DNA of 64,000 nucleotides from Desulfobacterales bacterium. Lineage in GTDB: Bacteria; Desulfobacterota; Desulfobacteria; Desulfobacterales; JAAELO01. Position 1 is the stretch's first letter. Each line of letters begins with the position of its first letter. Positions 47,286 to 61,509 of this stretch are shown here, in pieces. The stretch is taken from positions 1 to 64,000 of the forward strand of contig JAAELO010000071.1 of assembly GCA_024226555.1 (NCBI GenBank), read 5' to 3'. The translations under genes were made by a program, and so were the position numbers. Below the pieces are notes generated by a model. It was not told the DNA's origin, did no database searches, and saw only the letters and a program-made list of their open reading frames with translations.

Positions 47286-47321
47286 ACAAAAAGGGAAGTG
47301 AGAATTATCCCACTTCCCTTT
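47286..47321 (-). terminator. Rho-independent terminator of the SLC13 gene
   Basis: AAGGGAAGTG with CACTTCCCTT and a T run on the minus strand, 20 bp after the permease stop. Confidence 0.85.
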
Positions 47322-47341: not shown

Positions 47342-49303
47342 TTAATAGAAGGCATAAAGCATTCCAATAAGAACAATTAAGAATAACACTGTCATACCGG
47401 CCCCGGCTCTGGCGTAGTCCATTGTTTTGTAACCACCAGGGCGCATGATGAGGGCATTCACCTGGTGTGTTGGAAGAACAAATGTGTTGGAAGCGGCAAT
47501 AGCTACAACCATTGCAGTAATTCTTGGGTCAGCACCGGCTTTTACGGCCATGGACATGCATAATGGAACAAGAAGAACTGTTGCACCAACGTTTGATACT
47601 ACCAGGGTGAAGAAGGAAGTTAGGATTCCTACAACCAGAAGGAAAACTATTGTTGGAACAGATCCAATTGAATTCATAATGGTTGTGGCAATAAATTCAG
47701 CTGCTCCGGTTTTCTGGAAGGCAAGACCTAATGGTATCAAACCACCGAGGAGAAAAACTGTCATCCAGTCCACAGATTCATAGGCTTCATCCACGCTCAG
47801 CACATTGGTTAATATCATTCCAAGTGCACCTGTTAACAGACATACGGAAAGTGATAATTTCATACCAGCAAATCCTATGAGTCCCATAACAGGTTCAAAG
47901 CCCATAACAAGAGCAAGTGCGACTAAAAGCCATGTAACAGCAATTTTGGCTTTGTTGTCACGCATTATTTCACCTTTAACCTCAGTGGTGAAAGCAAATG
48001 TGCTTCTGGTTTTCAGCCAGTGGAATACTCGCCATGGACCGTACATCAATACCGCATCACCAGCTTTAAAACGATGCTCCGACAAGTCTTTAAAATTACA
48101 ATAACCTTCTGTGCATATTGTTATTGGAACTGCATCAAAGGTTTCACTGAAGTGTACTTCACCAAGCTTTTTCCCCACAAGGTCTGAACGGCTGGTAATA
48201 ATGCCTTCCATTAGACCTGAGTTGTTTGGAGAAAGATCTTCTGCAAAAAACTCAACATCGGTTTTCAGAGTATATCCCATCTCTTTAGCCATATTTTCAA
48301 CAATCTCTTTACTGTGAGCTATGACAGCAAAAATATCATTGTTTTCGAGGCGATCTGTGCTTCTTGGTGCAAGTGTTTTTATCTTTTTGTCCAGATGCTT
48401 AATTGCAATGATATTGATATGAAACTTCTCATGAATATTCAATTCTTCAAGTGTTCTTGGATCATTATGATCTTCAGGAACTGTCAGTTCAAATATTCCT
48501 TCTATCATGTCATAGGTATCAACTATTGAATCTGGAACCAGTGAATCATCACTATCATCTGCAGTTTTTGCAGGTAAAACAAATCTACCTAAAATAATGA
48601 AATATATAATGGCACTGGCCACAAGTGCTATACCAATAGGTGTTTGAGTGAAAAGTCCGAGTGGCTCAATCTTTTCAGGCATAAATCCCAGAGTGTTTGC
48701 CTGTTCAATTAAGTCATTGAGCAGAATCGTTGGACTTGCACCAACAAGGGTCATGGTACCACCGATAATAGCGCAGAATCCCATTGGCATCAGAATTCTG
48801 GAAATAGGAATACCTGTTTGCTTTCCGATTCGAATGGCAGCGGGCATGAAAAGTGCGGCAGCTCCAATATTCTGCATAAAACTCGATATAAAAGCAACTG
48901 TTCCTGAAATCAGTGTAACTATTCTGCTTTCAGCTTTGCCTGCAATTTTTAGAATTTTACGGGCCAGTATGTTCATAACACCTGTTTTATCTAATCCGGC
49001 GCCAATAATAATAACTGCAATTATTGATACAACAGCATTACTGGACAGACCGCTAATCGCTTCTTTGGGGGTGACCACTCCTAAAATCGGAAGAATGACC
49101 ATCATGATAATTCCCACCACATCAACCCTTACAAATTCAAAAATAAAAAGGATGATGGCTAAAACCAGCACGCCCATTACAATTCCCATCTGAGCTGTAA
49201 ATGGTACATCTTTAACTTCTGCGAATGAAGCTCCTGGCAGTAATAACAGACAAATACTGATAGTTGCCAGGATGCATAGGAACCGATGCATTCTATTTTT
49301 CAC
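47342..49303 (-). CDS. SLC13-family anion permease with RCK-C domains
   Basis: About 650 residues. The membrane part has two inverted halves (about 35-250 and 430-653) with the PTIL/SPTILLNDLI and FVLPTHQVNALIM substrate-loop signatures of the DASS/SLC13 group. In between (about 265-420) there are two TrkA-C-like regulatory domains. Transports a dicarboxylate, sulfate or related anion with cations. A GTG start at 49301-49303 with AAGGAGGG upstream gives a signal-like N-terminus; the ORF start at 49369 overlaps the preceding gene. Last gene of the signalling operon, ended by the terminator at 47286. Confidence 0.85.
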   Translation of the reverse strand: MKNRMHRFLCILATISICLLLLPGASFAEVKDVPFTAQMGIVMGVLVLAIILFIFEFVRVDVVGIIMMVILPILGVVTPKEAISGLSSNAVVSIIAVIIIGAGLDKTGVMNILARKILKIAGKAESRIVTLISGTVAFISSFMQNIGAAALFMPAAIRIGKQTGIPISRILMPMGFCAIIGGTMTLVGASPTILLNDLIEQANTLGFMPEKIEPLGLFTQTPIGIALVASAIIYFIILGRFVLPAKTADDSDDSLVPDSIVDTYDMIEGIFELTVPEDHNDPRTLEELNIHEKFHINIIAIKHLDKKIKTLAPRSTDRLENNDIFAVIAHSKEIVENMAKEMGYTLKTDVEFFAEDLSPNNSGLMEGIITSRSDLVGKKLGEVHFSETFDAVPITICTEGYCNFKDLSEHRFKAGDAVLMYGPWRVFHWLKTRSTFAFTTEVKGEIMRDNKAKIAVTWLLVALALVMGFEPVMGLIGFAGMKLSLSVCLLTGALGMILTNVLSVDEAYESVDWMTVFLLGGLIPLGLAFQKTGAAEFIATTIMNSIGSVPTIVFLLVVGILTSFFTLVVSNVGATVLLVPLCMSMAVKAGADPRITAMVVAIAASNTFVLPTHQVNALIMRPGGYKTMDYARAGAGMTVLFLIVLIGMLYAFY

Positions 49304-49349
49304 TTTAATTCCCCTCCTTGTCAAAATTATAAATTTGAATAACAACAAT

Positions 49350-50012
49350 TTAATTGTTTTCAGAATCATGTTTATCCAGAAAGAAGAGTAAGCAGATCTT
49401 CCCTTCCTCCTGGGTTATTTTTGCGTCAAGTATTTTCAATACTTCTTCAATCGTATTGCTGTGAAAGTTGCTTTTTGTTTTATTAACTCCTGAAAATTTG
49501 ATACCGAGTCTTTTTGCATCACTGTTAATGCTGATAATTATTTTTTTGTTCTGATCTGCATTGTCAGCAGCGTATAGCAGGCATTCCCCCATGAGTTTTA
49601 AAAAAAGAAAGTGCCTGATATAAATCTCAATGGGTTCCTCTGCAGGTAGAACTTCAGCAGATACCTCTATTTGAGCTAAGGGTCTTTTTAAAAGATTTAA
49701 CACAAGATTTAATAAAATTTCAGGATTTACAGTTTTCTTTTCCTCATCAGTACAATGGGCAAAACGATTCAGACTGCTGATTGTTTCGTGTGAATTCTTT
49801 ACCTGTTCACTGATTTTTTTGCAGATCGATATCCACTTGTCTATGTCTGCGGGGTGTCCCTGCTTTGCCATTAACCCAAGATCTTCCATTAATCCTGCAT
49901 TTTCATTAATGATGCCTATGGTGTTGTTGAGTTCATGGGCAACAGTTGCTGTAACCTTACCAAAAAACTTTAAACTTTCTGTACTAAGATTCCAGTCCGT
50001 ATTCACAATCAT
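49350..50012 (-). CDS. Histidine-kinase-like protein without recognisable ATPase motifs
   Basis: 220 residues. A clear histidine phosphotransfer/dimerisation segment (TVAHELNNTIGIINENAGLM, with His26) is followed by a region at about 100-210 that has the length of a HATPase domain but lacks the N-box, and the G1, F and G2 glycine motifs. Such proteins can act as phosphotransfer partners rather than kinases (similar in principle to ChpT/Spo0B), though this is inference. It overlaps the receiver upstream by four bases (ATGA). Gap of 46 bp to the permease. The H-box copies that of the full kinase at 50377. Confidence 0.6.
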   Translation of the reverse strand: MIVNTDWNLSTESLKFFGKVTATVAHELNNTIGIINENAGLMEDLGLMAKQGHPADIDKWISICKKISEQVKNSHETISSLNRFAHCTDEEKKTVNPEILLNLVLNLLKRPLAQIEVSAEVLPAEEPIEIYIRHFLFLKLMGECLLYAADNADQNKKIIISINSDAKRLGIKFSGVNKTKSNFHSNTIEEVLKILDAKITQEEGKICLLFFLDKHDSENN

Positions 50013-50371
50013 ACCCCTTCCATAAGTTCATTCATCTTTCCGATGAGGTTGTTTATGTCGATTGGTTTAAACAGATAACTATCCTCACCGCCAATTGCGG
50101 AACCTGCTTTATAATTAAAATCAAGTCCCTGACCAGTACAAAAAAGAATATGGATATCAGGGCAAATCTCCCTGATTTTCTCCCCAAGCTCTATGCCACT
50201 AATCCCCGGCATCTTAATATCCAGTACTGCAATATCATAATCATTCTTCTGGACGAGCCTAAGAGCTTCTTCTCCGCTGGTTATCCAGTCTGTTTTAATG
50301 TTTCTGAACGATAATCTCTCTGCTAATGTCGAGATTAGTTCTTTTTCATCGTCCACTAGTAAAACATACAT
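50009..50371 (-). CDS. Single-domain response regulator
   Basis: 120 residues, a CheY-like receiver: LLVDDEKE acidic pocket, phospho-acceptor Asp in VLDIKMPG, Lys in LFKPID. No output domain. It starts 5 bp after the histidine kinase and overlaps the HK-like gene by four bases, so it belongs to the same operon and may pass phosphate between them. Confidence 0.9.
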   Translation of the reverse strand: MYVLLVDDEKELISTLAERLSFRNIKTDWITSGEEALRLVQKNDYDIAVLDIKMPGISGIELGEKIREICPDIHILFCTGQGLDFNYKAGSAIGGEDSYLFKPIDINNLIGKMNELMEGV

Positions 50372-50376
50372 ATTTT

Positions 50377-52134
50377 TTATTCCTCTTCATCTATCTGATA
50401 TGGAAGTGTTATTATAAAGGTTGTTCCAACTCCGGCATCACTATCAAATTCAAGAGTGCCATGCAGATCACGGATTAAACCGTAGGTTAAGGAAAGGCCT
50501 AAGCCTGTTCCTCCAATTTCACTTTTTGTAGTAAAAAATGGTTCAAAGATCTTTTTCTGATGTATTGTGGAGATACCACAACCATCATCCTGAACATGAA
50601 GTTCAATACTGTCTTCCCGGGCATTGTCTTTGATGCGGATGGTTAATGTACCTTTTTCATCCATGGCTGCAATGGCATTGTTCATGAGGTTAATAAGAAT
50701 CTGCTGAAGCTTCCCGTTATCTGTAACTATCTCGGGTAAGTATGGATGAATATGCACATCAATATTAATTGATTTATATTCCGCTTCTTTATGAATAAAG
50801 CCAAGGACTTGCTGAATTGTATCTTTCACATTAATATTCTGTACTGAACTATCAGTTTCTCTTGCAAATCCAAGTAGTCTGTGGGTAATAGTTCCTGCCC
50901 TCTCAACAGCTGAGACAATAGAACCAACAGTGGATATCAGTCTTTCGTCATCTTTATATTCATCAAGAAAAGTAAAAAGATCTTGCAGGAGTCCTGCCTT
51001 CTCATTGATAATTGCAAGTGGATTATTTATTTCATGTGCAACACCGGCGGCTAACTGGCCAATTGAAGCCATTTTGCTACTACGGGAAGCTTTTGTCAGG
51101 TATACCTGTCTGAGTTTATCTGCACGATATAATACATTTACAACCCAGGTTACAAGAATAAGTACAGCTATTAAAACAAACAAAGCGGAAAGGGATACCA
51201 TGATCAGAATATGGGACCTGATACGTTCCATGAACACTTCATAATTATGATTTGATAATAGAATCCCAAGTTTCATATCTGTATTTCCAATTGCACTGAT
51301 CCCGGAAAACAGGAATTGTCCTCCTTTCAGGTTTTTATCTGGATTTGGTAATACTTCAGATAAAGGAAGTTTGGTTGATTTATGAAAAGAGGTACTAAAA
51401 CCAGGTTTTCCGAAATAGGCCGATGATGTCATAAGAATACCGTTTTTATCCATGATGTAGATATCTACGATATCCTTTAGTTTCAGTTTTTTCAGAAACA
51501 GATCTGTTGAGATATTATTGATGATTCCTGCAAGGAAAAAAACTTCCCCATTATTTTGTTTAAGTTTAAGACCTGCAACAAGATGGGGTTCCCCTGATTT
51601 TGTAACTATCACATTTATAAAATAATCTTTTTTCCAATCAATTTCTGTAAGATTTATTTGCCAGCATTTTGAGAGAAATTCATCATCATCACAGCATGAA
51701 ACAAGGCATCCTTTTTTTCCAATGACATTCAGGCTTGAGAAATTTACATTGGTTTTCTTTATGTTTTTAAGAACACTATTCAGAAATCCCTTACTTTTAA
51801 ATTGATCAGCAGGAAATTGAGAACTTATGATTCTGAGTGTGGAAACATACTGATCCAGAAATATTTCCACATCAACAGCCCCGCCTCTTGATAAAACAGC
51901 TGTTTCTAAAAGTAGGTCTGTGATAGTTTCTGTTTTATTGTTTTCATAGAAAAAAAAGGTTGATATCGCAAGTGGTATCAACGTTAATCCAAAAATTGCC
52001 TGAATCAAAAGAATCCATTTGTTACGGAAAATATATTGTTGGCCTTTTTCACCAGCAACACGCTCCTGATGATGCCAGAATTCAGGTACTTTATTTTTCA
52101 GGAACTTCATTTTATTTTTTTCAGATTTTGACAT
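50377..52134 (-). CDS. Membrane sensor histidine kinase with periplasmic sensor
   Basis: 585 residues. The first membrane segment (about 42-64) and the second (about 310-335) flank a periplasmic sensor of about 240 residues, with no family I can name safely (Cache-like layout). Cytoplasmic part: H box GVAHEINNPLAII with His367, N box LINLMNNAIAAMDE, G1 DDGCGIS, F-box FEPFFTTK and G2 GGTGLGLSL, all intact. The ligand is unknown; its neighbourhood of anion permeases suggests an extracytoplasmic anion or small molecule. The start overlaps the stop of the upstream hybrid by one base (TAATG). Confidence 0.9.
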   Translation of the reverse strand: MSKSEKNKMKFLKNKVPEFWHHQERVAGEKGQQYIFRNKWILLIQAIFGLTLIPLAISTFFFYENNKTETITDLLLETAVLSRGGAVDVEIFLDQYVSTLRIISSQFPADQFKSKGFLNSVLKNIKKTNVNFSSLNVIGKKGCLVSCCDDDEFLSKCWQINLTEIDWKKDYFINVIVTKSGEPHLVAGLKLKQNNGEVFFLAGIINNISTDLFLKKLKLKDIVDIYIMDKNGILMTSSAYFGKPGFSTSFHKSTKLPLSEVLPNPDKNLKGGQFLFSGISAIGNTDMKLGILLSNHNYEVFMERIRSHILIMVSLSALFVLIAVLILVTWVVNVLYRADKLRQVYLTKASRSSKMASIGQLAAGVAHEINNPLAIINEKAGLLQDLFTFLDEYKDDERLISTVGSIVSAVERAGTITHRLLGFARETDSSVQNINVKDTIQQVLGFIHKEAEYKSINIDVHIHPYLPEIVTDNGKLQQILINLMNNAIAAMDEKGTLTIRIKDNAREDSIELHVQDDGCGISTIHQKKIFEPFFTTKSEIGGTGLGLSLTYGLIRDLHGTLEFDSDAGVGTTFIITLPYQIDEEE

Positions 52135-53357
52135 TAATTACTCGATTCCATTGCTTTTTCGTTGGCCTTTTTAATAACATTACTAAGTTCTGTGATATTT
52201 AATGGTTTATGGAGGTAGTCAAAAGCCCCAAGTTCCAGGCACTGGTTTTTATCCTCTTCGGAACCATGTCCGGTTAGTATGATAACTTCAATTGACGGAT
52301 GGGTTTCTTTAACTTTTCTTAATATATCAATACCACTCTCTCCTGGCATTTTCATATCAAGAACCATAACATGTGGGTCATCCTGTTCGATTAAATTTAG
52401 AGCTGATCTTCCATCATGGACAACAGCAGAACCCATATTTCTAAGGGTTAAACGTTCAGAAAGTGTTTTTACAAAATCCTGCTCATCATCCACAAGAAGA
52501 ACTTTTGAGGGTTGGTTTTTATCATATTTTCTATAAACCTGATGTTCAGACAAGTCACCGTCAACACCAATTTTAATACCTCTGACACCATCAACTAATT
52601 CAACAATTGACCATAACTCTTTCTTTAGTTTATTGAGCTGGGATGAATCTTTATTAATTGCAATCCTGATTTTCTCATCTGTTGAATATACGGTAACATC
52701 ATGTCCTTTTTTAGCCAGTGCCACCTCAACCCTTGCAAGAAGGCTAAAATCCTTTATTGCCTGTGTTGATCTCTCGGTTGGCTGAAAGATATCTTCATTC
52801 AGGTTTTCTGTAATCAGATCACATGCTTCTTTAACCGATTCTGTATTCATAGGTATGATAAGATCATAATCAGTTGGATTAAAAGCTTCATTTATTCCGC
52901 AATATTTTGCCATCCACTTTGCTAACTCAATATCAAGTTTACGTATGTATTGTTCCGGATCTTTTGCAGTTCCTCCATTTTTAAGAAATGTTGCGATACG
53001 AAAGGGCATATCAGCGATCAACCCAATACGAAAAAAGTGTGTGATCTCTCTTGGGATAAGTTGTGTAGGATACCCTGAGAGAATAAGATCTCTTCCGGCA
53101 GATGCCATAAGCATTTTTGAAATGACTAACTTGATATATGCCAGAGCATATTTTTTTTCATGTGTAAATTTTTCAAAAACTGATGTTTTAAGCATAAGTG
53201 CTTTTCGCACCTTCGACTCATTCATACCTGAGAGTATTGAAGCTTCATTTACAATTTGATCTGTGGATGTATGGCGGAAATTTGTTCTTCTATATAGCTC
53301 ATCTATTAATTGATCTTCCTTACAGTATCCAGCACTGAATGCCTTTATAATTGCCAT
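52134..53357 (-). CDS. Hybrid regulator 2: cytidylate-kinase-like head plus receiver
   Basis: 407 residues. Residues about 1-180 resemble the cytidylate-kinase-like family (PF13189-type: N-terminal loop region, FTHEKKYALAYIKLVISKML, and DYDLIIPMNTES), but the Walker A loop is replaced by SAGYCKED, so ATP binding is doubtful. Residues about 200-270 are a BON-like or small alpha/beta segment (TVYSTDEKIRIAINK). Residues 282-400 are a receiver with VDDEQDF, Asp in VLDMKMPG, and Lys in YLHKPL. The head may sense or bind a ligand. It forms a tandem pair with the gene at 53400, 42 bp apart, and is directly followed by the histidine kinase. Confidence 0.75.
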   Translation of the reverse strand: MAIIKAFSAGYCKEDQLIDELYRRTNFRHTSTDQIVNEASILSGMNESKVRKALMLKTSVFEKFTHEKKYALAYIKLVISKMLMASAGRDLILSGYPTQLIPREITHFFRIGLIADMPFRIATFLKNGGTAKDPEQYIRKLDIELAKWMAKYCGINEAFNPTDYDLIIPMNTESVKEACDLITENLNEDIFQPTERSTQAIKDFSLLARVEVALAKKGHDVTVYSTDEKIRIAINKDSSQLNKLKKELWSIVELVDGVRGIKIGVDGDLSEHQVYRKYDKNQPSKVLLVDDEQDFVKTLSERLTLRNMGSAVVHDGRSALNLIEQDDPHVMVLDMKMPGESGIDILRKVKETHPSIEVIILTGHGSEEDKNQCLELGAFDYLHKPLNITELSNVIKKANEKAMESSN

Positions 53358-53399: not shown

Positions 53400-54605
53400 C
53401 TAATTTTTTGCGTTAATTTTTTCATAAGCTTCTTTCATAGTGCTTGTTAAAAGGTCAATGTCAGCAGGTTTTTGGAGGTACGCAAAGGCCCCAAGCTCCA
53501 TACATGTTTTTTTGTCTTCCTCTGATCCGTGTCCGGTTAGGATTATAACTTCGATGTATGGTTTTGTTTCCTTTATTTTCTTTAATACTTCAAATCCATC
53601 TACTCCTGGCATTTTCAGATCCAAAAGCATAACTTCAGTATCTTCTTTTTCAGTCATCTCCAAAGCCTGCTGCCCGTCATAAGCAATTTCACTGGGGAAT
53701 TCTCTAAGTTTCAATCTCTCAGAAAGTGTTTGAACAAACTCTTTTTCATCATCAACAAGTAAGAGCCTTAATGGTTTTTCAACATCAAGTCTTCGCACAA
53801 CAGTGGTAGAATAATAATTTTTTCCAAGTTTGGTCTCTACTGACTTAACATCAGGAACTTCTTTTGCAAGAGAGGTTATTTTCTGTTTGAATTTTGAAAG
53901 CATTATTACACTTTTATCAATCGTAACGATTACATTGCCTTCATCAGACTCAACTTCAAGTTTACTTCCAGCTTTTGAAAGAGCTAAGGCAACCTTAGAA
54001 GATAGCTGGAAATTAACCATCTCTTTTTTGATAAAATTATCTACTTTGAATTTTTCAGAATGTTTATTTATCAGATCTACAGATTCATTTACATCAAGTT
54101 TATCTGTTGGAATAACAATATCGTAAAGTTTTTCATCAAATGCACCCTTACCAGTAATTTCTTTTGTTAGTAAAACAGAGTGTTTATCAAAATTGTTAAT
54201 TGCTTTTAGTGTTTCTTCTCTTGCGTTTCCATGGAGATCCATTCCTGTTTTTATACGGTTCTCTTTATCTGTTATGATAAGAATACGGATAATATGTGAG
54301 AAACTCTTAGGAATAAGGTGTCCAAGAACTCCATGTAAAAGACATTTTTCACTTTTTAAAGATTCAGAAATGGTTTGCCTTAAACAGGCAAGACATTTTT
54401 CCTTTTCATGGGTAAAATCATTGAATGCAATCTTTTTGTTCTGGAGTACCTTTTGAATGGTAGATAGCTTTAAATTGTAATTTTCAGCTGTCCGCTCCAT
54501 AATCTCTTTATCAGTTATGAGATTATATCCGGCCTCTGTTTCAAGTTGTGAGATTATTTTTTGTGCATTTGAATACAATCCGTTTGAAATTGTTAAAACT
54601 GGCAT
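53400..54605 (-). CDS. Hybrid regulator 1: cytidylate-kinase-like head plus receiver
   Basis: About 401 residues from ATG 54603-54605 (GAGG 5 bases upstream; a GTG 6 bases earlier is also open). Same three-part layout as the following gene: a kinase-like head (about 1-180) with a degenerate loop (ISNGLYSNAQKI) and FTHEKEKCLACLRQTI, a middle domain, and a receiver (about 275-395) with VDDEKEF, Asp in LLDLKMPG and Lys in YLQKPA. The paralogues are similar mainly in the receiver (TGHGSEED is shared). A sigma-54-like promoter lies 55 bp upstream (54660-54675), making this the first gene of its operon. Confidence 0.75.
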   Translation of the reverse strand: MPVLTISNGLYSNAQKIISQLETEAGYNLITDKEIMERTAENYNLKLSTIQKVLQNKKIAFNDFTHEKEKCLACLRQTISESLKSEKCLLHGVLGHLIPKSFSHIIRILIITDKENRIKTGMDLHGNAREETLKAINNFDKHSVLLTKEITGKGAFDEKLYDIVIPTDKLDVNESVDLINKHSEKFKVDNFIKKEMVNFQLSSKVALALSKAGSKLEVESDEGNVIVTIDKSVIMLSKFKQKITSLAKEVPDVKSVETKLGKNYYSTTVVRRLDVEKPLRLLLVDDEKEFVQTLSERLKLREFPSEIAYDGQQALEMTEKEDTEVMLLDLKMPGVDGFEVLKKIKETKPYIEVIILTGHGSEEDKKTCMELGAFAYLQKPADIDLLTSTMKEAYEKINAKN

Positions 54606-54659: not shown

Positions 54660-54675
54660 AGCAATATCCATACCA
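54660..54675 (-). promoter_or_regulatory. Sigma-54 (-24/-12) promoter of the hybrid-regulator operon
   Basis: On the minus strand the sequence TGGTATGGATATTGCT matches the sigma-54 consensus TGGYAYRN4TTGCW at every specified position, with T as the permitted Y at base 4. The spacing gives a start site near 54648, about 43 bases before the gene at 54605. A sigma-54 activator is encoded 1.2 kb upstream. It is unusually strong for a site read by eye. Confidence 0.75.
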
Positions 54676-54823
54676 TAAAAAAACAGATGAAATATTAAGG
54701 GGTTATGATTTGTTGAATTTTAAAGGGTACAATGTGAAACAATATGAAACGCACAAAAAGACACGTTATGGAACATTATGAGATATTATATGGTTCTAAT
54801 GATAATTAATTTAGAATTTACTG

Positions 54824-55195
54824 CTACTGCTTTAGGACTGTTGATATTCTGTCAATTAAATCTTTAATATCAAGAGGTTTCATGAGGTAGTCAGCAGCTC
54901 CAAGTCGCATTCCTTCCATTCCGGCTTTTGTGGAACCATGACCTGTTAGAAGTATCACAGGAAGGTTTGGTTGAGTGTTTTTTATAAGTTTAAGAGTCTC
55001 AATCCCATTTAAACCATGCATCATCAGGTCGAGAATAACAATGTCAAACGACTCATTGTCCAGAAGATCAATCCCGCTTTGCCCGTCGTTTACAGCATGA
55101 GCTTTGTATCCTCTGAATTCAAGTCTTTGAGCAAGAGTACTGACAAACTCTTCCTCGTCATCAATCAATAAAATTTTTATGTTGTTATCAGACAT
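54824..55195 (-). CDS. Single-domain response regulator
   Basis: 123-residue receiver with LLIDDEEE, Asp in VILDLMMHGLNG (MPG replaced by MHG) and Lys in LMKPLD. Starts 8 bp inside the end of the NifX-like gene, so translation is coupled, with AAGGA upstream. No output domain. A gap of about 220 bp, carrying the sigma-54 promoter, separates it from the hybrid regulators. Confidence 0.9.
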   Translation of the reverse strand: MSDNNIKILLIDDEEEFVSTLAQRLEFRGYKAHAVNDGQSGIDLLDNESFDIVILDLMMHGLNGIETLKLIKNTQPNLPVILLTGHGSTKAGMEGMRLGAADYLMKPLDIKDLIDRISTVLKQ

Positions 55196-55547
55196 TTTTT
55201 CCTTCTATAACCCTTTCACTGAGCAAGTCACAATTTTTCAAGGAATCGTTAAGATATCTTTCAAATGCTACATCACATTTTCCAGAAACATTGTCAAATA
55301 TTGACAGTTTTTTCCATTTTAAAAATTGATAATACTCATCTTCGATAGCACCGCAGATCAGAACACTAATATTTTCAGCAAGTATTCTGTGACAGAGATC
55401 TTCAGGAGAGGATCTGGGTAAAACAACATTTTTTTTCTCTTCAATAGTGTTTTTTCCTGAAATGATTGCAATCATAACTTCGGTTGCAAGATCGAAGCGG
55501 GGTGCTACTTCATCATCGCAAAGTGGTATAATAATTCTCTTAATCAT
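55188..55547 (-). CDS. NifX/NifB-type dinitrogenase cofactor-like protein
   Basis: 119 residues from ATG 55545-55547, starting MIKRIIIPLCDDEVAPRFDL. The APRFD segment and the alternating strand-helix layout fit the Nitro_FeMo-Co domain family (PF02579), found in NifX and NafY-like proteins but also in many uncharacterised redox or iron-related proteins. No nif genes are present. The open frame extends upstream to 55658 but has no sensible start there. Only a weak SD is visible. Followed by the receiver gene with an 8-bp overlap. A metal/redox sensing role in the signalling block is conceivable. Confidence 0.65.
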   Translation of the reverse strand: MIKRIIIPLCDDEVAPRFDLATEVMIAIISGKNTIEEKKNVVLPRSSPEDLCHRILAENISVLICGAIEDEYYQFLKWKKLSIFDNVSGKCDVAFERYLNDSLKNCDLLSERVIEGKNV

Positions 55548-55583
55548 AATATTACAACAGTATATATGAAAAAAAATATTTAT

Positions 55584-55778
55584 GGAATCTCTAATAATTA
55601 GAATTTTTATTGAAAGACTACGTTTATAAAAGCTTTCAGTTTTATAAAATCTCTGCATGAGAAAAAATAACGAGTGATTTTACAACAGTTCTTTTTTTGT
55701 AATATACTCCGTTGTTTTGTTTTTATTTCTCATAAAACAACTTAAGTATTTCGGTCAAAAGGCAATTATTAAAGATTC
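55584..55778 (+). mobile_element. MITE copy 3, degenerate and longer
   Basis: The left part GGAATCTCTAATAATTAG, the middle (AATAACGAGTGATTTTACAA) and the right end (GTATTTCGGTCAAAAGGCAA...TTATTAAAGATTC) match the other copies in order, but internal additions (about 60 bp) and altered ends make it 195 bp. No target duplication is visible. It lies between the sigma-54 activator's stop and the NifX-like gene. Confidence 0.65.
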
Positions 55779-55804: not shown

Positions 55805-57229
55805 CTATTCTAATTTATAATGTTTTATTTTCCGCCATAAAGTACTCCTTCCCCATCCTAAAATCCGGGCTGCTTCGGCTTTCTTACCTCTGGTCTTAAT
55901 AAGAGTCTCAAGGATCATTTCTCTTTCAGTTTGTCCCCAGGTCCCTTGTTCCGAAACTTCTTCTTCTATATTTGGAGGAGCATAAGTTACGGTAGCATTG
56001 TTTTCTACCTCTGGAACAGGATCAACAGATTCCTGTTTAAAATAATCAGGTTCCTCCAGCAAATATGCGGGAAGATGTACAGTTTCTATAGTTGGTGTAT
56101 TGGCAATACTTACTGCATATTCAACGATATTTCTTAGTTCCCGGATATTACCTTCATACTTGTAGCTGAGAAGAAGTGTTAAGGCTTTCTTTGAAAATCC
56201 TTTTATGTCTGCCCCAAGCTTTTTTTTATATGTATTGAAAAAGTAGTCTAAAAGCAATCTCACATCTCCCTCTCTTTTTCTAAGGGGTGGCAGATGAATC
56301 CTTGCAACGTTCAATCTGAACAGAAGATCTTTTCGAAATAGTTTATCATTAACCATCTGCTCGAGGTTTCTGTGGGTTGCTGCAATCATTCTCACATTAA
56401 CTTTGAAACCCTTTGTACTTCCAAGGGGGTAAATAATTTTGTCATCAAGAAAAGTTAATAACTTTACCTGAAGTGAGAGGGGAAGGTCTCCAATTTCAGT
56501 TAGAAAAATGGTCCCATTATGGGCAAGTTTGAATCTGCCAGGTTTATTTTCCACAGCTCCGGTAAAAGCCCCTTTCTGATGTCCGAAAAGTTCAGATTCA
56601 AGTAGTGTTTCCGGTAGTGCACCACAGTTTATTTTTATAAATGTGCCTGATGTTCTCTCGGATGTTTGATGCATGGCCTCAGCTACAAGATCTTTTCCTG
56701 TTCCGGTTTCACCTGTAATCAAAACGGATACGTCACTTTGTGCAAGAACAGGAAGTGTCTGGAAAATTTTCTCCATCTGCTCACACCTGCCTATTATATT
56801 TGCAAAACTATAAGCCAGGCTTTTTTTTGTATCTAATTTTTCAGAAGTTCTCATGTCTGATATTGTTTCAATATAGCCTGCTGTTTTCCCATTAATATCA
56901 ATAATTGGCGCTGATGTAATCTGTATTGGAAGAAGCTGCCTGTTGATGTTGATCATATCACTTTTACAGGAGATAGCCCGACCATCTCCATCTATTTTCA
57001 AAACAGGACAATCACTTATGCATGCTGCTCCCCTAAGTATGTTACGGCAGTGTATTCCACGAGCAAGGGATGTGGAATACCCTGACAATGCTTCAAAAGT
57101 TCTGTTCAAAGCAATGACTCTGCGATCAGTATCCAATATTATGACACCAAGGGGAATTTCATTAATCAGATGTATGAAATTTAAGGGATTTGTTAAAAGG
57201 TTATTTATTTGTGGATGAGAAAAATCCAT
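55805..57229 (-). CDS. Sigma-54-dependent activator with PAS domain
   Basis: 474 residues. PAS domain (about 12-125) with a cysteine cluster (HCRNIL, AACISDCPVLK), then an AAA+ domain (about 145-375) with Walker A GETGTGKD, GAFTGA contact loop and the R-finger region, and a C-terminal Fis-type HTH (AEAARILGWGRSTLWRKIKHY). The Walker B reads FLTEIGDLP, with Thr244 where an Asp is usual, and Glu245 retained. Start ATG 57227-57229 (AAGGA upstream). It likely drives the sigma-54 promoter at 54660. PAS cysteines could bind a metal or sense redox state. The Walker B change might impair ATP hydrolysis. Confidence 0.85.
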   Translation of the reverse strand: MDFSHPQINNLLTNPLNFIHLINEIPLGVIILDTDRRVIALNRTFEALSGYSTSLARGIHCRNILRGAACISDCPVLKIDGDGRAISCKSDMININRQLLPIQITSAPIIDINGKTAGYIETISDMRTSEKLDTKKSLAYSFANIIGRCEQMEKIFQTLPVLAQSDVSVLITGETGTGKDLVAEAMHQTSERTSGTFIKINCGALPETLLESELFGHQKGAFTGAVENKPGRFKLAHNGTIFLTEIGDLPLSLQVKLLTFLDDKIIYPLGSTKGFKVNVRMIAATHRNLEQMVNDKLFRKDLLFRLNVARIHLPPLRKREGDVRLLLDYFFNTYKKKLGADIKGFSKKALTLLLSYKYEGNIRELRNIVEYAVSIANTPTIETVHLPAYLLEEPDYFKQESVDPVPEVENNATVTYAPPNIEEEVSEQGTWGQTEREMILETLIKTRGKKAEAARILGWGRSTLWRKIKHYKLE

Positions 57230-57458: not shown

Positions 57459-57587
57459 TATAGGGAACCTCGAATAACAGCATTTTGACCGAACTACTGC
57501 AAAAAGAACTGTTGTAAAATAGCCTCGTTATTTTTTTCTCATCTTTGTAATTTCAATCAAAATTCTAATTTTTAGAGGTTCCCTATA
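57459..57587 (-). mobile_element. MITE copy 4 with TATA target duplication
   Basis: The core at 57463-57583 (121 bp) runs from GGGAACCTCGAATAA to TTTTTAGAGGTTCCC, flanked by TATA at 57459-57462 and 57584-57587. It lies in the divergent gap between the activator and sulP genes, so it could affect their promoters. The remainder of this 620-bp gap is A+T-rich, with a long T/C tract near 57650. Confidence 0.85.
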
Positions 57588-57849
57588 GATAAGTCATTGA
57601 TAATTGAGAATTTAGGAATGGGATTATTTTTATGTTTTTCAACGATTCTCCTTTTTTTTTCCCCCTTTTTTTTATATATTGACTCGTTCTGATTGTAACA
57701 TCCTTTTATAAGGGGAAATTTTTTTTCAGAATTTATGTTGTTGTTTTTATTAAGAATTCAAAACACACAGAACAGATGTGTTTTAATTATAAAGTTTAAA
57801 AGTTTGTAAGTTTTAAAATTTTAATTATTTTGAGGGGAGAAAAAACACA

Positions 57850-60003
57850 ATGTTAGCTAAAATTTTTCCGTTCTTGCTGTGGTTTAAAGATTACTCCACA
57901 GACAAAGCAAGGACAGATCTCGTTGCCGGTATTACTGTGGCAATGGTATTAATTCCACAATCGATGGCATATGCCCAGTTAGCTGGTCTTCCAGCTTATT
58001 ATGGTCTATATGCTGCATTTTTGCCGCCGATGGTGGCTTCACTATTTGGTTCAAGCAGGCAACTTGCGACCGGACCCGTTGCAGTTGTTTCGCTTTTGTC
58101 CGCAGCATCTCTTGAACCTCTCGCAACAGCGGGTGGTGAAGCCTTTATAGCATATTCAATCATTCTTGCCCTAACTGTTGGTATCTTCCAGTTTTTTCTG
58201 GGTGTTTTCAAGTTAGGGCTTGTTGTTAACCTTTTATCACATCCTGTTATTAACGGGTTTACAAATGCAGCCGCAATTGTAATTGCATCTTCACAGTTTT
58301 CAAAACTGTTTGGAGTATCAGTTGATAAAGCCACCCATCATTATGAGACAATCATTAATGTATGTAAGTCAGCATTCCACTACACACACTGGCCAACTCT
58401 GGGTATGGGTGTTCTTGCGATACTGATAATGGTTGTACTAAAAAGGGTTAATCCAAAAATACCAAATGTTCTTGTGGCTGTTCTTGTGACAACTCTTCTT
58501 TCCTGGGGATTAAATTTTAATAATGATAAAATAATTACCCTTGAAAACATTAAATCTCCTGAAATAGTTGCTACAATAAATAGTTTCAATCAGGACATAA
58601 ACAGTATTGAATCTTTAAGTGACAAAAGGGCTATTCTTAATCAAAATCTTAAAAAAGAGAAAGAAATAGTCGCAGAGCATCATGGGGTTAAAACAGTTAA
58701 ACTTGCAGATTTGGAACATGAATTATCAACAATTCAGATTCAAATTGATGCAAAGAAAAAAGCGGCCCATGAAAAGCGTGAAAGTTTGAGACTTACACAT
58801 TTTTCAATTGCAAATGATGCCAGTGAAAAACCTGATTTTTCTATTCGCACTGAAACCAATGTGGGTGATGGAAGAAAATGGAGAATCAGTATTGGTAACA
58901 AGGTTGTAAAGACTGATAAAATCAAAATGGTTGGAGCTGGTGCTGTTGTTGGAACTATCCCCGATGGCCTTGCTCCTTTTATTATTCCAAAAGCGCCTGG
59001 TGAAATAGGGTATTTTGGTGCTTTCCTTCAACTTTTACCCATTGCAATTCTAATCTCATTATTAGGTTTTATGGAAGCTATTGCAATTGCAAAATCAATG
59101 GCTGCAAAAACTGGTCAGAAACTTGATCCTAATCAGGAACTAATAGGTCAGGGACTTGCAAACATTATTGGTTCTTTTGGTCAAAGTTATGCTGTTTCCG
59201 GATCATTTTCCAGATCTTCGGTCAACTTACAAGCCAATGCAGTAAGTGGAATTTCATCTGTTGTTACTAGTTTAGTTGTTGCTATTACACTGATTTTCTT
59301 TACACCACTTCTATATCATCTACCTCAGGCTGTTCTTGCAGCTGTAATTATGATGGCTGTTATTGGGCTTGTTAATGTTAGTGGTTTTGTTCATGCCTTT
59401 AAAGCAAAGAGATCAGATGGTATTATTTCTGTTATCTCTTTTGTTTGTACTCTTTATTTCGCCCCACACCTTGGAGATGGAATCTTTGTAGGTGTTGGTC
59501 TTACTTTTGGTGTGTTTATTTTCAAAAATCTTCGTCCAAGAGTTGCTTTCCTTTCAAGGTCAAAGGATGAATCTTTAAAGATTGCTCTAAAATCCGGTCT
59601 TAAGGAATGTGATCATATTGCTGTTGTTAGATTTGATGGATCATTAATCTTTACAAATGCAACATACCTTGAAGACAGAGTTCTTGAGCATATTGCAGAG
59701 ATGAAAGAGCTTCGTGCTGTTCTTGTTGAATCAAGTGGTATAAATGATCTTGATGCTTCAGGAGAAGATGCTCTATCTGTTCTTGTTGATACCGTTCGTG
59801 ACAGTGACAGAGATATCTATTTCTGCGGTGTAAAAGAGGAGGTTCTTAGTGTTATGGAAAGAACACACCTTCTTGAAAAAATTGGTGAAGAGAATATCTT
59901 CCCTGATAGCGAAGAAGCACTTCATAAAATTAAAAATATTATCCATGGTAAAGGACAGTGTCAGTCTTGTCCTCTAAAGGATTTTATACCTCTTGAAGCT
60001 TAA
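57850..60003 (+). CDS. SulP-family anion permease with an unusual soluble insert and STAS domain
   Basis: 717 residues. The first half has the SulP signature (LIPQSMAYAQLAGLP, the YGLYAAFLPP segment, and NAAAIVI helix). Between about residues 224 and 367 there is a charged, partly coiled-coil insertion (Glu/Lys/Gln-rich helices then a soluble strand region), after which the usual GTIPDGLAPF transmembrane core resumes. C-terminal STAS domain (about 585-700) and a short Cys-containing tail (CQSCPL). It transports sulfate or a related anion. SD GAGGGGAG is about 9 bases before the ATG. It is divergent from the sigma-54 activator and ends at a terminator. Confidence 0.85.
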   Translation: MLAKIFPFLLWFKDYSTDKARTDLVAGITVAMVLIPQSMAYAQLAGLPAYYGLYAAFLPPMVASLFGSSRQLATGPVAVVSLLSAASLEPLATAGGEAFIAYSIILALTVGIFQFFLGVFKLGLVVNLLSHPVINGFTNAAAIVIASSQFSKLFGVSVDKATHHYETIINVCKSAFHYTHWPTLGMGVLAILIMVVLKRVNPKIPNVLVAVLVTTLLSWGLNFNNDKIITLENIKSPEIVATINSFNQDINSIESLSDKRAILNQNLKKEKEIVAEHHGVKTVKLADLEHELSTIQIQIDAKKKAAHEKRESLRLTHFSIANDASEKPDFSIRTETNVGDGRKWRISIGNKVVKTDKIKMVGAGAVVGTIPDGLAPFIIPKAPGEIGYFGAFLQLLPIAILISLLGFMEAIAIAKSMAAKTGQKLDPNQELIGQGLANIIGSFGQSYAVSGSFSRSSVNLQANAVSGISSVVTSLVVAITLIFFTPLLYHLPQAVLAAVIMMAVIGLVNVSGFVHAFKAKRSDGIISVISFVCTLYFAPHLGDGIFVGVGLTFGVFIFKNLRPRVAFLSRSKDESLKIALKSGLKECDHIAVVRFDGSLIFTNATYLEDRVLEHIAEMKELRAVLVESSGINDLDASGEDALSVLVDTVRDSDRDIYFCGVKEEVLSVMERTHLLEKIGEENIFPDSEEALHKIKNIIHGKGQCQSCPLKDFIPLEA

Positions 60004-61371: not shown

Positions 61372-61509
61372 TATCGGGAATCTCTAATAACCGCCTTTTA
61401 ACCGAACTACTGCGTTATTACGAAAAAAAAACTGTTGTAAAATCAGCTCGTTATTTTTTCTAATGCCTTGCATTTCAATCAAAATTCTAATTATTAGAGG
61501 TTCCCTATC
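61372..61509 (-). mobile_element. MITE copy 5 with TATC target duplication
   Basis: The core at 61376-61505 (130 bp), GGGAATCTCTAATAA to TTATTAGAGGTTCCC, is flanked by TATC at 61372-61375 and 61506-61509. It lies between lysC and the lipoprotein gene at 61505, whose stop codon straddles the element's edge. Confidence 0.85.

Follow-up and report, generated by a model that had tools for sequence, protein, structure and literature searches.

Genes of the locus

The window, by which we mean the whole 64-kb stretch of Desulfobacterales DNA that was analysed, carries a block of signalling and transport genes on its minus strand. Read in the direction of that strand, the order is an activator gene, a NifX-like gene, a receiver gene, a gap holding the candidate promoter, two genes that we call CK1 and CK2, a histidine kinase gene, a second receiver gene, the gene of a 220-aa protein and a DASS transporter gene. 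The genes and the terminator that follows them are listed here, together with a neighbouring permease gene on the plus strand.

57850 to 60003, plus strand: SulP anion permease with a STAS domain (PF00916 and PF01740), divergent from the activator gene
55805 to 57229, minus strand: activator (enhancer-binding protein) of the PAS, AAA+ and Fis-type HTH plan, with GAFTGA and conserved PAS cysteines Cys61, Cys70 and Cys74
55188 to 55547, minus strand: NifX-like protein (dinitrogenase Fe-Mo cofactor family, weak match to PF02579), start probably ATG 55547
54824 to 55195, minus strand: stand-alone receiver (PF00072), upstream of the promoter
53400 to 54605, minus strand: CK1, a degenerate cytidylate-kinase-like domain (PF13189) with a receiver (PF00072), first gene of the predicted operon
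52134 to 53357, minus strand: CK2, a second kinase-like/receiver protein, of a SulP-linked type whose relatives elsewhere are encoded immediately after SulP genes
50377 to 52134, minus strand: membrane histidine kinase (PF00512 and PF02518), probably with a Cache-like sensor region
50009 to 50371, minus strand: stand-alone receiver (PF00072) with the phospho-acceptor motif
49350 to 50012, minus strand: putative ChpT/Spo0B-like phosphotransferase of 220 aa, a helical hairpin with invariant His26 and a degenerate ATPase domain
47342 to 49369, minus strand: DASS/SLC13-family anion transporter with an inserted TrkA-C domain (CitMHS, Na_sulph_symp and TrkA_C), last gene of the predicted operon
47290 to 47321, minus strand: intrinsic terminator, a 14-pair stem with a T-rich tail, 20 bp past the transporter stop

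From CK1 onward the genes overlap or lie at most 42 bp apart, and the six of them run into the terminator; we infer that they are transcribed as a single six-gene operon. The earlier note on this DNA had placed a "first hybrid-regulator gene" at its head, within a "signalling block". A gene with a receiver does lie directly downstream of the promoter, but it encodes a degenerate cytidylate-kinase-like domain fused to that receiver; likewise, the signalling genes are present, but because the operon ends in an anion transporter we regard it as a transport regulon rather than as a signalling block only.

Although relatives of CK1 retain the kinase fold together with the receiver, the P-loop GxxxxGK is absent from all 38 aligned kinase-receiver sequences. 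We therefore rejected the idea that CK1 and CK2 are active cytidylate kinases, the nucleotide-binding P-loop having been lost, and consider the CK1 relatives probable receiver-controlled pseudo-kinases; fusions of the CK1/CK2 type may represent a pseudo-kinase output domain. The histidine kinase of the window has a weak dCache match (E 0.22), and its homologue at a related locus (L092) matches the same model at E 8.7e-11. No DNA-binding domain was found in the stand-alone receivers of the window, and the PAS-type sigma-54 activator is the one DNA-binding regulator of the block.

The 220-aa protein shares with ChpT and Spo0B a helical hairpin bearing an invariant histidine and a degenerate ATPase domain. 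Residues H26 and N30 are invariant in 40 sequences, and no ATP (G) boxes were found in the C-terminal part. Its structural model (pLDDT 91) matches the folds of histidine kinases and of 4fpp, a "bacterial phosphotransferase" that we take to be ChpT; identity to 4fpp is 9%, and phosphotransfer is putative. Together these features suggest that the protein is a phosphotransferase. The ~220-aa ChpT/Spo0B-like family recurs in more than 40 related loci, and no Pfam model matches it above its cut-off.

The probable sigma-54 promoter and its paired upstream sites

Three elements lie in the 218-bp gap between the receiver gene at 54824-55195 and CK1.

54660 to 54675, minus strand: candidate sigma-54 promoter, TGGTATGGATATTGCT, with the -24 GG at 54674-54673 and the -12 GC at 54662-54661; exact consensus, conserved downstream of orthologous activator genes
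54730 to 54751, minus strand: putative upstream activator site nearer the promoter (proximal), CGTTTCATATTGTTTCACATTG; its start lies at -76 relative to the -24 box
54764 to 54785, minus strand: putative distal upstream activator site, TATCTCATAATGTTCCATAACG, at -110 from the -24 box and 34 bp from the proximal site

The promoter is an exact match to TGGYAYRN4TTGCW at the place and on the strand first proposed, reading from 54675 to 54660, and is the sole exact match in the 64-kb window; its -24 GG and -12 GC elements have the invariant spacing of this promoter class. The likely start of CK1 is ATG 54605, with the ribosome site GAGGTGA, where the mechanical ORF began at GTG 54611. The distance from promoter to ATG is thus 54 bases, in agreement with the 55 bp originally reported, and transcription is predicted to start at about 54649.

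Could the 16-mer be a chance match, with transcription of the operon starting instead at a sigma-70 promoter or continuing from the upstream receiver gene? Dinucleotide shuffles of the window gave a mean expectation of 0.11 matches, and 10 of 100 shuffles contained at least one, so that on window statistics alone the 16-mer could arise by chance at about the 10% level. A sigma-70-like site matching 9 of 12 positions, with TG, is also present at 54873-54846. However, sigma-70-like sites occur near chance density (44 vs 37.9 expected), and the position, strand and enhancer geometry of the sigma-54 promoter are conserved across families. It is this conservation across loci that lifts the window promoter above chance, and we consider a fortuitous match very improbable.

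The 16-mer is thus very probably a real sigma-54 promoter. Across the whole assembly (7.7 Mb, 904 contigs) the exact sigma-54 motif occurs 46 times, against 5 occurrences of a reversed control pattern, indicating that this class of motif is strongly enriched in the organism; its genome encodes a single rpoN gene (PF04552, 1.8e-59, on contig C581).

Upstream of the window promoter and of related promoters we found a repeated element, TGTTTCAWWWTGTTTCAWWWTG, with a 10-bp period. The repeat was spotted by eye and then modelled; an automatic palindrome count of the upstream regions was dominated by simple A/T dyads. The element is found in 51 of the 52 promoters compared, that of the window included, and 33 of the 52 carry it as a pair at exactly 34 bp, an arrangement that appeared in no shuffled set. 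When a matrix built without the window was scored over all positions of the 64 kb on both strands, 54730-54751 was the top-scoring position (24.9 bits), and the distal site and a further register overlapping it (54754-54775) scored 16.3 and 18.0 bits, ranking fourth and second in the window. Across loci the half-sites are concentrated near -113/-103 and -79/-69, counted from the -24 box; in the window the two sites are centred near -126 and -92 relative to the predicted start, roughly three helical turns apart. Judged by sequence, the paired conserved sites at -110 and -76 correspond to the upstream enhancer sites of a sigma-54 promoter.

Elsewhere in the window genome, no such element was found preceding a sigma-54 promoter. 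Because the combination of enhancer and promoter was found only here in that genome, the regulon of the activator is probably this single operon. The possibility that this element also acts on the SulP gene was considered and rejected, as the promoter region of that gene has no enhancer match above 12 bits.

The activator and its conservation

The gene named in the earlier note as the partner of the promoter does lie at 55805-57229, with its ATG at 57229. Its product has a PAS domain at the N-terminus, an AAA+ domain with Walker motifs and a GAFTGA loop (PF00158, 2.1e-66) and a Fis-type HTH (PF02954, 5.3e-13), the make-up of an enhancer-binding protein, and would bind DNA. GAFTGA is intact in the window protein and kept in at least 93% of 62 aligned sequences. 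We rejected a classification as an NtrC-type (two-component) response regulator, as the N-terminal receiver is absent and a PAS domain stands in its place, which makes the activator one-component in type. PrdR, NtrC, NifA and NorR have a similar domain plan and GAFTGA, but their NCBIfam models score the window protein at 342, 324, 298 and 313 bits, in each case below the curated equivalog cut-off, so the activator is not an orthologue of any of them.

Three cysteines of the PAS domain are conserved (Cys61 in 61 of 62 sequences, Cys70 in 57 and Cys74 in 58), as are two of the NifX-like protein (Cys89 in 59 of 60 sequences and Cys102 in 60 of 60, numbered from the mechanical ORF start), whose gene directly follows that of the activator in nearly all loci. 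These residues hint at a redox or iron-sulfur signal. Orange-protein genes also include NifX-like proteins among their products. A MITE-like repeat of ~125 bp with inverted ends lies at 57470-57605, 55576-55778 and 61383-61508; copies flank the activator gene in opposite orientations, and one overlaps the beginning of the NifX-like ORF as mechanically called. The genome as a whole has at least 40 copies, of 78-91% identity.

Of the 292 genomes sampled from the order, 71 have an orthologue of the activator, at ~46-72% identity, and close homologues are present in 32 of 86 genomes of one family; the ~60 activator loci examined are all of one order and not fully independent. The NifX-like gene almost always comes next to the activator gene, and after it the genes of a histidine kinase, of a receiver and of the 220-aa protein are often found. 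At 28 of 59 loci the 5.5 kb downstream of the activator gene hold an exact sigma-54 promoter on the activator strand, and at none do they hold one on the opposite strand; reversed-pattern controls gave exact matches at 0-1 of the 59. Allowing up to one mismatch, the promoter is found on the activator strand at 44 of 59 loci, vs 2-4 in controls. All of 49 aligned promoters have GG and GC, which the search required, and their other consensus letters are near-invariant. At eight activator loci (L106, L108, L130-L132, L136, L137 and L140) there was no recognisable promoter within the stretch examined.

The genome has many candidate AAA+ activators (74 at a first look), and several related loci have an extra NtrC-type pair, so the promoter might be served by an NtrC-type response regulator or some other activator rather than by its neighbour. 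We consider this improbable. It is with this one family of activators that enhancer and promoter are found together, and rearrangements have not parted them from it: in four cases (G035, locus L002; G081, locus L087; L111; L112) the same promoter and sites lie ~8-27 kb from the activator gene, and in G035 and G081 they stay with the first gene of the target despite a distance of ~9-27 kb. Conversely, the combination is absent upstream of kinase-receiver genes from genomes without the activator, 0 of 17 having such a promoter. Two things thus support the pairing of the 55805-57229 product with this promoter: dozens of genomes conserve them together, and the loci share the paired upstream sites. 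A practical consequence is that the enhancer motif allows the target operon to be found in relatives even when the activator gene lies elsewhere.

In our view it is highly likely that the sequence at 54675-54660 functions as a sigma-54 promoter, with the 55805-57229 product as its activator, and that it drives the six-gene operon. The activator would bind the two enhancer elements at 54764-54785 and 54730-54751; its GAFTGA loop would contact sigma-54 RNA polymerase, and ATP hydrolysis would open the promoter. Transcription would then pass through CK1, CK2, the histidine kinase, the receiver, the phosphotransferase and the DASS transporter and end at the 47290 terminator. The activator probably responds to an internal signal, which would be sensed by the PAS domain with its three conserved cysteines, by the NifX-like protein, or by both.

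Transport, substrate and published systems

The 675-aa transporter at 47342-49369 belongs to the DASS/SLC13 (CitMHS/Na_sulph_symp) family, and its PDB matches include VcINDY and SLC13 proteins. DASS transporters (PF00939) also lie downstream of the promoter in 36 related loci, usually in a 490- or 537-aa form. The TrkA-C-containing form, shared by the window and a close relative (L141), differs from the usual 490-aa subtype, and the common form has no match in the window genome at E 1e-20. A SulP gene lies directly upstream of the activator gene at L083 and close upstream at L082. The window genome contains dsrA, which identifies the organism as a dissimilatory sulfate reducer.

The operon would be read, in our proposal, as an anion uptake unit, most likely for sulfate, with its own phosphorelay. 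Gene context and literature make sulfate a reasonably likely substrate of the DASS transporter. Sulfate uptake by sulfate reducers changes between a low- and a high-affinity mode; the recognised candidates for the transporters in these bacteria are SulP and DASS proteins, and the molecular control of high-affinity uptake is described as unresolved (PMC5840216). It is less likely, though a serious alternative, that promoter and enhancers are real and the anion is a C4-dicarboxylate, citrate or another oxyanion, so that the regulon serves carbon uptake or some other purpose. CitMHS is the best match of the window transporter, dicarboxylate carriers are among its PDB relatives, the DASS family transports dicarboxylates as well, and in Desulfovibrio the genes for lactate, pyruvate and transport are commonly under sigma-54 regulators (PMC4641369). 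Against this, published accounts of these bacteria treat SulP and DASS genes that come with similar signalling genes as sulfate transporters (PMC5840216, PMC11887813), a SulP gene neighbours that of the activator in the window and at L082 and L083, and the host is a sulfate reducer.

A 2025 paper describes a DASS cluster with two-component and CBS-domain proteins as a sulfate-uptake cluster of Desulfosarcina variabilis and other Desulfobacteraceae, with a separate SulP cluster, and finds it widespread in the family (PMC11887813). Like that cluster, the loci studied here combine a DASS transporter with many two-component proteins and Cache-type histidine kinases, and on gene content they appear to be the same. 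In the published model the proposed regulators are Cache-type histidine kinases, WalR-type response regulators and TetR; in the window, by contrast, the receivers have no DNA-binding domain and a PAS-type sigma-54 activator is present instead. The main text of PMC11887813 names no sigma-54 promoter, activator or enhancer for the DASS or SulP clusters, and none appeared in the other literature searched; so far as these sources show, the sigma-54 step is absent from the published model.

Single-component AAA+ activators beside a sigma-54-dependent operon are likewise known from Desulfovibrio vulgaris (DVU2106, which controls orange-protein genes, DVU2275, DVU2827 and DVU3142). The targets of such activators there are cell division and orange protein, pyruvate, electron transfer and others (PMC4641369), with no sulfate-uptake/phosphorelay operon listed, and no TGTTTCA tandem element was seen in the text consulted. 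As a kind, then, the unit of sigma-54 promoter and one-component activator is familiar; as a regulon it appears undescribed in the literature searched. Beyond the earlier note, which lacked the enhancer element, the analysis adds the paired enhancer, the wide conservation of the arrangement and its target, an operon for the uptake of an anion that is probably sulfate.

More tentatively, and with rather less confidence than we attach to the substrate, we suggest that this regulon of one activator, one paired enhancer and one promoter is the missing sulfate-uptake switch of the Desulfobacterales. The cysteine-bearing PAS domain and its NifX-like partner would sense intracellular sulfur or redox state, and the surface-sensing phosphorelay, itself expressed from that promoter, would feed back on the transporters. 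The DASS sulfate transporters of D. variabilis were constitutive over the conditions tested, which counts against the proposed activation of the operon, although those conditions varied the organic substrate (PMC11887813). Promoter, enhancer code and activator offer a concrete candidate for such a switch in bacteria that dominate sulfate reduction in marine sediments.

Two variant arrangements were seen among related loci. At L033, L034, L037, L039, L041 and L043 genes for a kinase-receiver protein, a histidine kinase, a receiver and a phosphotransferase come after that of a SulP permease; these loci have no sigma-54 promoter, and their genomes lack the activator except that of L043, where it lies elsewhere. 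The window operon looks like a merger of such a SulP-linked cassette with the activator-linked one. At L085, L086, L088 and L089, which belong to a single genus, this promoter stands before a kinase-like gene that lacks the receiver and a DASS gene; the genes for potassium uptake by TrkA and TrkH come next, and may connect the uptake of anions with the balance of cations.
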